Below are positions 40,129 through 44,935 of a stretch of DNA of 45,818 nt, piece by piece; the first letter of the stretch is position 1; each line of letters starts with the position of its first letter. This stretch comes from Tissierellia bacterium. GTDB lineage: Bacteria; Bacillota; Clostridia; Tissierellales; Tepidimicrobiaceae. The notes below the pieces were generated by a model. The model was given only the letters and a program-made list of their open reading frames with translations. It was not told the DNA's origin and did no database searches. The position numbers and the translations under genes were made by a program. The stretch is from positions 1 through 45,818 of the forward strand of contig JAAYEU010000150.1 in assembly GCA_012728595.1 (NCBI GenBank), in the 5' to 3' direction.

Positions 40129-40857
40129 CTAATATTCTAACACCCTGGATAAAAATTCCTTGGTCCTAGGATTTTGTGGATTTTCAAAAAACTCAGTAGC
40201 AACATTTTCTTCCACTATTTCTCCATCAGCCATAAATATTACCCTATCTGCCACCTGTTTTGCAAATGCAATCTCATGGGTTACAACTACCATAGTCATA
40301 CCCGTTTTGGCCAAGTCCTTCATTACATTCAATACCTCTCCTACCATTTCAGGGTCTAGAGCAGATGTGGCTTCATCAAAAAGCATTATTTCTGGATCCA
40401 TAGCCAGAGCCCTAGCAATGGCTATTCTTTGCTTCTGTCCCCCTGACAAGGAAGTTGGATAGGCATCCTTTTTATCTAGTAAATCCATGGTCTCAAGGAG
40501 CTTAATGGCCTTCTTTTCAGCCTCTTCTTTAGACTGCTTCTTAGTTAAGTATGGCGCTAAGGTGATATTTTCCAAAACGGTTTTATGGGGAAATAGATGA
40601 AAATGCTGAAATACCATGCCAATAGCTTTTCTAACCTCATCTATTTTCTTTCCCAAATTACCAATATTCCTACCCATTATATATATTTCTCCAGAAGTTG
40701 GCTCTTCTAGATAGTTTATACACCTTATAAGAGTACTTTTTCCCGAACCAGAAGGTCCAATTAAGGCCACTACTTCCCCTTCCTCTATTTCTAGATTTAT
40801 GTTTTTTAATATATGTTTATGGTCAAAGAATTTGTGTAAATTTACTATTTTAATCAT
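40129..40857 (-). CDS. Polar amino-acid ABC importer ATPase (ArtP/GlnQ type)
   Basis: The 242-residue ATPase has Walker [10 protein letters not shown] (about residue 33), the PAAT-type [19 protein letters not shown]-loop, signature [16 protein letters not shown], Walker [15 protein letters not shown] and the switch VVTHE. It drives import through the permease encoded just upstream, whose gene overlaps by 8 bases. The operon lies behind arginine T-boxes, so arginine is the likely cargo. Confidence 0.93.
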
Positions 40858-41506
40858 TGTGAGCTAGTCTCCTTTCAAGTAAGCCTATTAACTGGGATAG
40901 CGTAAATGTAAAAATGAAATATGTTACTGCTACTATTATCAGCGGATTGAAAGGTTGGTAGCTTGTGCTCTGTACTATTTTTGATGTATACATTAACTCT
41001 GCAACTCCAATGGTTGAAGCTACAGATGTTTCCTTAATCAGTGTAACGAATTCATTTCCCAGAGCTGGTAATATATTTTTAACAGCTTGGGGTAGTATTA
41101 TATATCTCATAGTTTGTCCATTGGTTAAGCCTAAACTTCTGCTTGCTTCCCATTGCCCTTTATCCACGGACTGAATTCCAGAACGGATTATTTCTGCTAC
41201 ATAAGCGGCGCTGTTCAAAGATACTGCTATTAGGGCTGCTAAAAAAGCATCCATATTTACCCCCATGATTACATAGCTTCCGAAATATACTAAGGCTATT
41301 TGTACCATTATAGGTGTACCGCGAACCAGCTCTATATAGAAGGTTGAAATAAGTCTTAATATCTTTAGCTTGGATAGTTTAAAAAGGCTAAGTAAAGAAC
41401 CTAAGCTTGTACCTATAATGAGGGATAGTAAGGATAATAATAGAGTTATTTTAATTCCTGTTATATAATAATCTTTATATTCTACAAATAATCTTACAAG
41501 GTTCAA
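40850..41506 (-). CDS. Polar amino-acid ABC importer permease
   Basis: The 218-residue His/Glu/Gln/Arg/opine-type permease has about five membrane helices, the typical [19 protein letters not shown] segment, and the coupling loop [23 protein letters not shown]. As a single permease gene it probably forms a homodimer. It lies 19 bases after the binding-protein gene and overlaps the ATPase gene, so the three form a minimal complete importer. Confidence 0.93.
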
Positions 41507-41525: not shown

Positions 41526-42359
41526 TTAGTCTAATTCATTTAATTCATTGGCTTCTATTACCCATTTTTCTATCAAACCTTCAGATTTAGCTTTTGCTAG
41601 TATTTCATTTATCTTCTCAGTTAATTCATCATTCCCCTTCTTTATGGCTATAGCCACCCCTTCTGAACCACTATCTATTATAAGTTCATCTACCACTAAT
41701 AAATCGTTATTAGTCTGAGCGAAGGCTTTGGCAACACCTGTTTCCATTATGGCACAATCTATTTTATCGGTCTTTAAATTCATAATTATATCTGAATTCG
41801 AACTTAAAGCTACTACCTCTGCTCCTTCTATTTTAGTTTCAGCAATCTTTTCTTGAGTTGTTCCAATCTGGACACCAATTGTTTTCCCATTTAAATCCTC
41901 TAAAGAAAAAATATTGCCTTCATCTTTTCTATTTATCAATACCGAGTGGGTTGATTCATAGTAAATATCTGAAAAGTTTACTTCTTTTGCCCTTTCTGGG
42001 TCAGGATTGACAGCAGCAATAACTATGTCCAACATCCCAGTAGAAAGGCCGCCTAATAGTTTGTCAAATTCCATATCCTTTATCTCCAGTTCCACGCCCA
42101 ATTCTTTGGCTATATACTTACCAATTTCTATATCAAAGCCAACAATTTCATCTTTCCCATCTATCATCTTATGAAATTCAAAAGGTGGATAATCTGCACT
42201 GGTACCCATCACCAGTTTACCCTTATTCTTTATCCCTTCCAATGAATAGCTTTCAACATTTGTTTGTTCATTACCAACATTGGCCTCATTTTTCCCACAA
42301 GCTACCATTAAACTTGATAATAACACAATTACTAGAATTAGACTGATTTTGTTTTTCAT
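41526..42359 (-). CDS. Polar amino-acid-binding lipoprotein (SBP_bac_3)
   Basis: The 277-residue precursor has a signal ending in lipobox LMVACG (Cys about residue 21), then the family-3 fold: GKLVMGTSADYPPFEFH, VGFDIEIGKYIAKELG, GLSTGMLDIVIAAV and LNGKTIGVQIGTTQE. A longer in-frame start at 42443 would lie inside the T-box terminator; AGGAGGGG precedes the ATG at 42359. The specificity is inferred from the arginine specifiers in the leader; lysine, histidine or ornithine remain possible. Confidence 0.93.
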   Translation of the reverse strand: MKNKISLILVIVLLSSLMVACGKNEANVGNEQTNVESYSLEGIKNKGKLVMGTSADYPPFEFHKMIDGKDEIVGFDIEIGKYIAKELGVELEIKDMEFDKLLGGLSTGMLDIVIAAVNPDPERAKEVNFSDIYYESTHSVLINRKDEGNIFSLEDLNGKTIGVQIGTTQEKIAETKIEGAEVVALSSNSDIIMNLKTDKIDCAIMETGVAKAFAQTNNDLLVVDELIIDSGSEGVAIAIKKGNDELTEKINEILAKAKSEGLIEKWVIEANELNELD

Positions 42360-42379: not shown

Positions 42380-42660
42380 TTGATAAAATAAAAAATTCCC
42401 GCCCCCAATTATAATTTAGAGACGAGAATACCCGCGTTACCACTCTACTTGGTTTTATTATTAAAACCCACTCAATTCAAATAACGCTTTGAATGCGAAA
42501 TAGGATACTCACCCAATATATTAGGCTTTGTCCTATTTGTCTCAACAGCTCTTTTCACCATACTTTCAATTCACTGGCTCTCACCTAACCCAGTTTCTCT
42601 GTAAAATCTACTGATATGGCTACTCTCTGTGTCATAGACTTTAAATATTCACTTTTTATA
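42380..42660 (-). promoter_or_regulatory. T-box leader (gene-proximal), specifier AGA (Arg)
   Basis: T-box AGAGTGGTAACGCGGGT lies at 42430-42446. The terminator stem (ATTCTCGTCTC with GGGGGCGGGAAT, G-U pairs) ends in TTTTTT. Stem I has AGTAG and, after GAAA, the specifier AGA (42550-42552) followed by G and CUGU, which pairs with ACAG on the 5' side. AGA reads tRNA-Arg(UCU). It is the second of two in tandem, directly ahead of the binding-protein gene. Confidence 0.88.
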
Positions 42661-42672
42661 CTACCTATCAAT

Positions 42673-42690
42673 TTAATGAACGTTCATTAA
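42673..42690. promoter_or_regulatory. 18-bp perfect palindrome between the tandem T-boxes
   Basis: TTAATGAACGTTCATTAA is exactly self-complementary. Its TGAACGTTCA core is like operators of TetR-family repressors. It lies just beyond the terminator of the distal T-box and before Stem I of the proximal one, where neither T-box needs it. No TetR gene is in the window. Confidence 0.55.
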
Positions 42691-42698
42691 TACTTGTA

Positions 42699-42974
42699 AA
42701 TTAAAAAACTCGCCTCTAATATAGAGACGAGTATATATACCCGTGGTACCACTCTAATGGTGTTTTACTAGAAAGAAAAGTAAAACCCACTCAATTCAAA
42801 TAACGCTTTGAATGCGGGATAAGATACTCACCTATAAGGCTTTGTCCTATCCGTTTCAGCAACTCTTTTCGTTAAGCTTTCCATCTACTGGCTCTCACCT
42901 AACCCAGCTCTCTGTCAGATGTACTCATCATAACTACTCCTTTGCATCTTCAACTTTTTCGTCATTTTACATTA
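42699..42974 (-). promoter_or_regulatory. T-box leader (promoter-proximal), specifier AGA (Arg)
   Basis: T-box AGAGTGGTACCACGGGT lies at 42739-42755. The terminator (ACTCGTCTCT / AGAGGCGAGT) is followed by TTTTTTAA. Stem I carries AGTAG and the specifier AGA (42864-42866), followed by G and UUGC pairing with GCAA on the 5' side. The segment CACTCAATTCAAATAACGCT is shared with the proximal T-box, so the two arose by duplication, yet their Stem I bases differ with compensating changes. Confidence 0.88.
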
Positions 42975-42980
42975 TAATAT

Positions 42981-43009
42981 ATGATACATAGAATTTAAAT
43001 ATTTGTCAA
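42981..43009 (-). promoter_or_regulatory. Promoter of the tandem T-box / ABC operon
   Basis: Minus-strand TTGACA (43004-43009) and TATCAT (42981-42986) are 17 bases apart. It starts 19 bases downstream of the stop codon of the B12 protein gene with no terminator visible between. Confidence 0.75.
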
Positions 43010-43027
43010 GGATTTTAATCATTACAC

Positions 43028-44935
43028 TTATAATTTGATTTCTTTTGCTCTTTCCTTTAAAATATATTCTACCTCTTCTAAGTTTCCTACAGCATAATCT
43101 ACTACTTTATCCGATTGTATAAGCATACCATCTTCACCTACTATTTTTACACTACCCTTTACTGGTTTAGTCTTCCAGGCTTTTGCATATTTAAATTCAT
43201 CTACTTCTCCCCATAAATAGGGTACTGGTAGGAATCCTGCTGCAAATATCTTGTAGAATCCTTCAGCTGAATATGGGTTATCTACATACTTTTCAATACC
43301 AGAAATAATGGTCCTAGCAGACTCTAATAACTCTTGCATACGTTCTTCAACATCTGTATTTTTACTCATATCCTCTATTTTCCCATCTCTTCTTAGTTCT
43401 CTATATTTTTGTAGTGAATATTGAGTAATCTTTATACTTTCGTTAATAATTTCTGGTGTTGCCAAGTGGGAGGCTTCTGAATAACTAACAACGTGAATGA
43501 TTGGTGGACTAGATTCATCATGGGGATCTATATCATCCATTAAGGCAGTTACTGCTGCCAATTGTATCTTAGCCTCTTCTAGATCTGGTTTAAAGTAATC
43601 TAGTCCTGCTCTTGGTTGTAGTATGACTCTAAAGTTTGAGTCTTCTAAGCTCTTAACCAAGGTGAGCATAGCTCTGGATTTAGCTAAATCTTGAATTCCC
43701 CAAGTATACCTTGGAGTATTTAACATATTTTGCAGTATTAGAGTTTTAACTCCTATTTTTTTAGCCAATTTAGCTGCTAAATAAGCAGATACTATATAGG
43801 TTACGTCATCTGCCCCTCTGAAGGCAAAATGATGGGGTAGATTTGGCTCAAAGGGCTTATTGGTTTTTGCAATATATTCCAAAGTCTCAATATGTTGCTT
43901 AAGGTTAGTGTATAAGTCATATGGACCTCTTCCATCCAACTTATTAAACCACCATAAGGATAAAGCATGCCAGCAAATATTTATGGTCTCTTCATATATT
44001 TTAGCCAGCTGAGGTATGTTTTTGGTTCCAGCATAGGTTCTCAACAATAAAGGTCGAGATGCATCCCATATCATCCTATATTCCTCAGGAGAATTTATTG
44101 GAACGCCTCCACCATTTGGTTTATCTCCCCAATCTTCACCAAAATTAGATTGGGTAAGTTGAGAGGTGCCAATGGATAAAATATCCAAATATCCAGTTTT
44201 GGCTAAGTAGTCTGCCCAGGATAAAAATTCCTTAACGGATTCCATTCTATCTACTGAAGATGAATATGGCCCTACGTGAGCTCTCATTAATGGATAAAAA
44301 GGCCTATTCATGTTAGAATCAAGCCTTTTCACTACTGTATCTTTTGCCGTTCCATATTCGTCATATGTAGCACGGTTTACAGGTTCAAAAGAGTCGTAGG
44401 CTTGTGAATTTATAATATCTTTTCCAAATTCCATCCTAAGATCATCATATAAGCTTCCCTCTATGATGTCCCTAGGAATCCTTTCTTCAGGAATCCCCAT
44501 CTTGGTTAATGTTTCTTTAACCGATTCTCCACCTATGAAGGTCTTTATAAAGCCTTTATGCTCTCTCTCAATTATCTCACAGGTCTTAGGCAGGCCAGCA
44601 AAATATATGGCCTTGATGGGACCTCCTTGATAAGATAGCATATCCCTGCTTTTTAATGCATTCATAAAATATCCAACCATATTAACTGCTTCATCTTGAT
44701 CTAACCTATAACTTAATCCAATCTGGCTTACATCATTTTTATTAATCCATTCCACAATTTTTTCTTGATTAACTTCATATCTTATATTGTTCAAAGCTTC
44801 TGCTATAGATTCATTTGCAAAAATCACCTGATAACCGCAATCTCGTAAAAGCTCTGCAGCCGAATTAATTCCAAGGGTATGAGCATCTAAAGATGGTTTT
44901 ATAAATGCAAAAATATCTCCGTCTACTGCAAACAT
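43028..44935 (-). CDS. Cobalamin-binding domain protein with a large unassigned C-terminal domain
   Basis: The first ~150 residues look like a B12 Rossmann domain. They hold DAHTLG (D17-x-H19-x-x-G22), matching the DxHxxG lower-ligand motif, then GLSYRLD in the SxL position and FIGG in the GG position. The ~480 remaining residues include RAHVGPYSSSVDR, SIGTSQLTQSNFGEDWGD, HHFAFRGADDVTYIVSAYLAAK and ILQNMLNTPRYTWGIQDLAKSR, which resemble the TIM-barrel half of methylaspartate/glutamate-type mutases; this resemblance is from pattern only. Being fused in the order B12 then barrel, it differs from OraE and KamE. AAAGGAGG precedes the ATG, and the gene has its own promoter. Substrate unknown. Confidence 0.7.
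   Translation of the reverse strand: MFAVDGDIFAFIKPSLDAHTLGINSAAELLRDCGYQVIFANESIAEALNNIRYEVNQEKIVEWINKNDVSQIGLSYRLDQDEAVNMVGYFMNALKSRDMLSYQGGPIKAIYFAGLPKTCEIIEREHKGFIKTFIGGESVKETLTKMGIPEERIPRDIIEGSLYDDLRMEFGKDIINSQAYDSFEPVNRATYDEYGTAKDTVVKRLDSNMNRPFYPLMRAHVGPYSSSVDRMESVKEFLSWADYLAKTGYLDILSIGTSQLTQSNFGEDWGDKPNGGGVPINSPEEYRMIWDASRPLLLRTYAGTKNIPQLAKIYEETINICWHALSLWWFNKLDGRGPYDLYTNLKQHIETLEYIAKTNKPFEPNLPHHFAFRGADDVTYIVSAYLAAKLAKKIGVKTLILQNMLNTPRYTWGIQDLAKSRAMLTLVKSLEDSNFRVILQPRAGLDYFKPDLEEAKIQLAAVTALMDDIDPHDESSPPIIHVVSYSEASHLATPEIINESIKITQYSLQKYRELRRDGKIEDMSKNTDVEERMQELLESARTIISGIEKYVDNPYSAEGFYKIFAAGFLPVPYLWGEVDEFKYAKAWKTKPVKGSVKIVGEDGMLIQSDKVVDYAVGNLEEVEYILKERAKEIKL

Follow-up and report, generated by a model that had tools for sequence, protein, structure and literature searches.

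Tandem T-boxes with arginine specifiers ahead of an arginine-type ABC importer operon from a Tissierellia bacterium

Introduction

Two T-boxes in succession ahead of a single ABC importer operon raise the question of which tRNA each of them senses and whether both take part in controlling the genes downstream, the more so as the mode of action of tandem T-boxes has been stated to be unknown (PMC7583486). We considered this question for a locus in a 45,818-nucleotide stretch of DNA from a Tissierellia bacterium (hereafter, the window), which was compared with related loci, including those of Clostridium sp. Cult1, C. ultunense and Tissierella pigra.

Organization of the tandem leader

Analysis with cmscan and the RF00230 model (cut-off of 93 bits) revealed four T-boxes above the cut-off in the window, all on the minus strand. 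Two of them fall within 42380-42974 and align over all 219 model positions, confirming the proposal, made in a preliminary description of this DNA, that the region contains two complete T-boxes. The other two carry a GAC specifier before aspS (6283-6078) and an AAC specifier before asnA (25967-25716), which are ordinary partners for these codons, indicating that the reading of specifiers works in this window. With only 17 T-boxes in the 2.19 Mb of the genome (191 contigs), the presence of two at a spacing of 75 nt is not attributable to chance. The leader and the operon comprise the following elements, in the order of transcription:

42981..43009, minus strand: promoter TTGACA-17-TATCAT upstream of the distal T-box (11/12 consensus matches)
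42959-42720, minus strand: distal (first transcribed) T-box (RF00230, 114.4 bits, E = 1e-24, model positions 1-219)
42644-42415, minus strand: proximal (second transcribed) T-box (RF00230, 124.6 bits, E = 2.5e-27, model positions 1-219)
41526..42359, minus strand: substrate-binding protein (SBP), 277 aa, lipoprotein-like (PF00497, E = 2.2e-32)
40850..41506, minus strand: permease (PF00528, E = 3.1e-28)
40129..40857, minus strand: ATPase, GlnQ type (PF00005, E = 2.6e-41; GlnQ, TcyN and ArtP models below their cut-offs)

The genes directly downstream of both T-boxes thus encode a polar-amino-acid ABC importer (PF00497, PF00528 and PF00005), as had been suggested. All 12 tandem loci have a TTGACA-type promoter ahead of the distal T-box. 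Their two T-boxes lie 40 to 120 nt apart, with a separation of 40 to 66 nt in 7 loci that leaves hardly any room for a second promoter; in G009, G006, G019, G057 and G115, the 40-49 nt in between are largely terminator and terminator tail. The gene upstream of the leader (43028-44935) encodes a 635-aa protein whose only match, to a B12-binding domain, is weak and falls short of the Pfam cut-off; a comparison with solved structures returned no relative.

Comparison of the two window copies bears out that they share a common 3′ part but have diverged in Stem I. In the Rfam alignment, the basal Stem I helix beside the specifier is formed by UUGC/GCAA in the distal copy and by CUGU/ACAG in the proximal one. 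Of the 152 pair cells that 38 sequences contribute to this helix, 151 are preserved, and both sides have changed at pairs 1 and 4, which are G-C and mostly A-U in the distal copies and A-U and G-C in the proximal copies; the compensating change noted from the two window copies is thus upheld in the larger set. At the 3′ end, each copy has an antiterminator and a terminator that both fold and use a common strand, CUCGUCUCU, so that the two structures are mutually exclusive; a U run follows. The terminators are located as follows:

42708..42732, minus strand: distal terminator, followed by TTTTTT (11-bp stem; −15.1 kcal/mol in the folded segment)
42395..42429, minus strand: proximal terminator, followed by a T run (14-bp stem including G-T pairs; −15.9 kcal/mol in the folded segment)

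The antiterminator segment and the terminator with its U run are present in all 24 elements of the 12 tandem loci, with mean folding energies of about −7 kcal/mol for the antiterminator and stronger ones for the terminator (−15 kcal/mol in distal and −16 kcal/mol in proximal copies). The short segment of the proximal copies in L052 and L069, when folded freely, does not adopt the standard antiterminator form.

Specifier codons and cognate tRNA

The Rfam alignment gives the specifier loop as GAA-A-AGA-G in both window copies and places no codon other than AGA in either loop, as had been proposed. The specifiers and the UGGU segments of the antiterminator bulges, complementary to the ACCA end of tRNA-Arg(UCU), are located as follows:

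42864..42866, minus strand: specifier AGA (Arg), distal T-box (Rfam alignment; frame test on 38 T-boxes)
42748..42751, minus strand: UGGU of the distal bulge (UGGUACC)
42550..42552, minus strand: specifier AGA (Arg), proximal T-box (Rfam alignment; frame test on 38 T-boxes)
42439..42442, minus strand: UGGU of the proximal bulge (UGGUAAC; bulge 42436-42442)

The specificity for arginine was substantiated in two ways. The first was a frame test on 38 T-boxes, namely the two window copies and 36 more, which comprise those located upstream of similar binding proteins in relatives and the one on argS in the genome of the window. The specifier frame reads Arg in all 38 (32 AGA and 6 AGG), whereas the frame one base upstream reads AAG or GAG (25 Lys and 13 Glu) and the frame one base downstream reads a mix of Glu and Gly. 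A single frame encoding only arginine between two neighbours encoding mixed amino acids is the pattern expected from selection on the Arg codon. The argS T-box (L005) resembles the window pair in its Arg specifier (AGG) and its UGGUAAC bulge, but is a single copy, with a different Stem I, on a tRNA ligase gene.

The second line of evidence is the covariation between the bulge and the discriminator base of the tRNA. In this genome, tRNA-Arg(UCU) has A as its discriminator base, and its ACCA end is complementary to the UGGU of both copies. Across genomes, the variable base of UGGN tracks the discriminator of tRNA-Arg(UCU) in 13 of 14 cases: U accompanies A in 7 genomes (G000, G001, G012, G015, G017, G019 and G057), C accompanies G in 6 (G009, G076, G118, G241, G243 and G245), and the one exception, G170, has UGGC with an A discriminator. 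Fisher's exact test on the 6-and-6 table available before G015 was added, uncorrected for relatedness, gives p = 0.002. Given that G009 does not share its family with the other C/G genomes, the change does not reflect a single inheritance, unless the locus was transferred. This covariation, which the preliminary description did not consider, is the strongest support for the Arg assignment. The bulges also differ by position, with UGGNAAC in the proximal copies of nearly all loci and UGGNACC in the distal copies.

Distribution and age of the T-box pair

Two T-boxes are present in all 10 loci of the closest binding-protein group for which the upstream sequence is complete (the window, L047-L050, L052-L054, L056 and L057). 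Among the others, L055 retains the end of a second T-box where its contig stops, and the sequences of L051 and L058 run out within the proximal T-box; the ending of these three draft contigs within the tandem T-boxes is what would be expected if the repeat breaks assembly. In the phylogenetic tree of the T-boxes, one clade unites the distal copies (95/96 support) and a separate group contains the proximal copies (88/93), indicating that a single duplication predates these species and that both copies have been retained since. The tree pairs the two copies within L069 and within L072 as mutual nearest relatives, which points to a separate duplication or gene conversion.

A different arrangement is found in Tissierella pigra (L082/L060; L082 2678-6324), where a distal-type T-box is followed by binding protein 1, a proximal-type T-box, binding protein 2, the permease and the ATPase. 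With the second T-box inside the operon, the two binding proteins of T. pigra would be under different control. As to whether the tandem could have arisen from such an array by loss of the inner gene, the SBP of the window clusters with the T. pigra protein that follows the distal-type T-box rather than with its counterpart after the proximal-type T-box, although the backbone of this tree is weak. The L061 locus (G097) encodes several binding proteins in a row, two of them after T-boxes of another Stem I type (AGG), and is adjoined by a CRISPR array.

Proposed mode of action and alternatives

We consider it very likely (probability of about 0.88) that the leader contains tandem transcription-attenuating T-boxes, both reading tRNA-Arg(UCU), which act in series on an arginine-type importer operon. 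This reading builds on the anatomy, the specifier, the tRNA complementarity and the age of the pair, as established by sequence comparison; tRNA binding, tRNA-dependent readthrough, termination, action in series and the dose response are predicted by analogy with the T-box family. Transcription would begin a short distance before the distal T-box. With arginine in ample supply, the charged tRNA-Arg would be unable to pair with the bulge, each terminator would form, and RNA polymerase could be halted at either of two points. Under arginine shortage, the uncharged tRNA-Arg(UCU) would pair with the AGA specifier and, through ACCA, with the UGGU of each element, both antiterminators would form, and the importer genes would be transcribed.

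What such a pair would be selected for is a separate matter, compatible with action in series, and here we lean slightly towards tight shut-off rather than a steeper response. In a simple calculation with two independent, identical switches, which ignores kinetics and any contact between the elements, the 10-90% span shrinks from 81-fold to only 40-fold (effective Hill coefficient of 1.19), whereas a leak of 10% falls to 1%. The predicted gain in steepness is therefore modest and, with the span merely halved while the leakage is squared, low basal expression would be the larger expected benefit.

The spacer between the two T-boxes of the window contains one further element:

42673..42690, no strand assigned: perfect 18-bp palindrome TTAATGAACGTTCATTAA between the T-boxes (12-bp core conserved in the spacer)

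The 12-bp core occurs once each in G000, G012 and G017, always in the T-box spacer, and with one change in G001; it is absent elsewhere in 20 genomes of the family. A genome-wide operator was ruled out, because the 14-mer is unique in its own genome, even with up to 1 mismatch. The palindrome might act as an operator or form a short RNA hairpin, and the 75-nt spacer that holds it may provide room for an extra input. A bolder idea, which we regard as doubtful, is that in this genus and its near relatives the palindrome is a third control element, operator or RNA hairpin, linking the Arg tRNA switches with a protein or another signal, and that the distal (UGGNACC) and proximal (mostly UGGNAAC) copies are kept apart by different tuning. 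Only in G017 and G012 (loci L048 and L053) is the palindrome preceded in the spacer by a second dyad, TGACAGACTGTCA, which differs by one base in L053.

The same spacer lends some credit to the view that only the proximal T-box governs the importer, with a spacer promoter driving the operon and the distal copy being a relic or serving mainly to stop transcripts from the upstream gene: at 75 nt, it has room for the operator-like palindrome and contains weak promoter-like matches. However, these matches are not conserved and are no better than those in shuffled spacers, and the search for an internal promoter, in which the longer spacers were compared with shuffles, was negative in both respects. 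Moreover, the spacers of several relatives measure 40-55 nt and are mostly terminator, and a strong promoter lies ahead of the distal copy, which in every tandem locus has preserved its specifier, its two hairpins and the complementarity of its bulge. We thus find it improbable that only the proximal T-box is in control. Hardly credible is the sensing of another tRNA, most plausibly tRNA-Lys, through the AAG one base upstream of the specifier: although this triplet is present in both window copies, and both tRNA-Lys species of the genome have an A discriminator and could pair with UGGU, the first base of the triplet varies between A and G among homologues (25 Lys, 13 Glu), the argS T-box of the same genome, with the same layout, has AGG, and the tRNA-Lys discriminator is A in every genome where tRNA-Lys was read, including those in which the bulge is UGGC, with which it would not pair and which matches the G of tRNA-Arg(UCU), so that frame conservation and discriminator covariation exclude a Lys reading.

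Cargo of the importer

The two arginine T-boxes were previously taken to assign arginine as the cargo. Arginine is indeed the likely cargo, but a T-box reveals only what is sensed, and related basic amino acids are possible substrates. The SBP has 4ymx, which we take to be the arginine binder ArtI of Thermoanaerobacter tengcongensis, as its nearest solved sequence, with ArtJ and arginine- and Lys/Arg/Orn-binding proteins lower down. None of the curated models for Art-type importers was reached, the best for the SBP being TIGR01096 (lysine/arginine/ornithine), at 150 versus 256 bits. With the family models below their cut-offs, we name the importer only as polar amino acid, arginine-type by regulation. 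In this sense, arginine control, and probably arginine cargo, can be assigned to a widespread importer of Tissierella-like anaerobes.

Comparison with known systems

No Arg T-box on a transporter was listed in the 2008 survey table of 14 genomes (PMC2494555). In a 2025 study (PMC12452182), contiguous T-boxes were reported to be over-represented on the artQ, glnQ and artP genes of Bacillota, with pairs accounting for 94-100% of contiguous cases and only rarely three elements. The view that arginine T-boxes on transporters are uncommon in tandem therefore does not hold: tandem T-boxes were reported as over-represented on artQ-glnQ-artP operons, and all close relatives of the window locus with enough upstream sequence have two. 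The artQ-glnQ-artP tandems share with the window pair the phylum, the class of importer operon and the arrangement as T-box pairs; the parts of the study considered here give no specifiers and no distal/proximal history, both of which can be read from the window case. The tandem T-boxes of thrS, trp and ilv/leu described there are likewise complete T-boxes repeated in series, but concern other amino acids and biosynthesis or tRNA ligase genes.

Tandem riboswitches with the same ligand and separate platforms have been described as pseudo-cooperative (PMC9481103, 2022). The window pair likewise combines two riboswitches that are complete, belong to the same class and are predicted to sense the same ligand, probably in one leader, each with its own expression platform and its own predicted terminator; the ligand here would be a tRNA, however. 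Given that same-ligand tandem riboswitches and artQ-glnQ-artP tandem T-boxes are already published, the window pair falls within a described type of control. To this type, it adds a natural set for testing how tandem T-boxes act, comprising 10 loci with separately evolving copies and Tissierella pigra, in which a binding-protein gene lies between the two types; the freshest detail of the locus is the conserved palindrome in the spacer.
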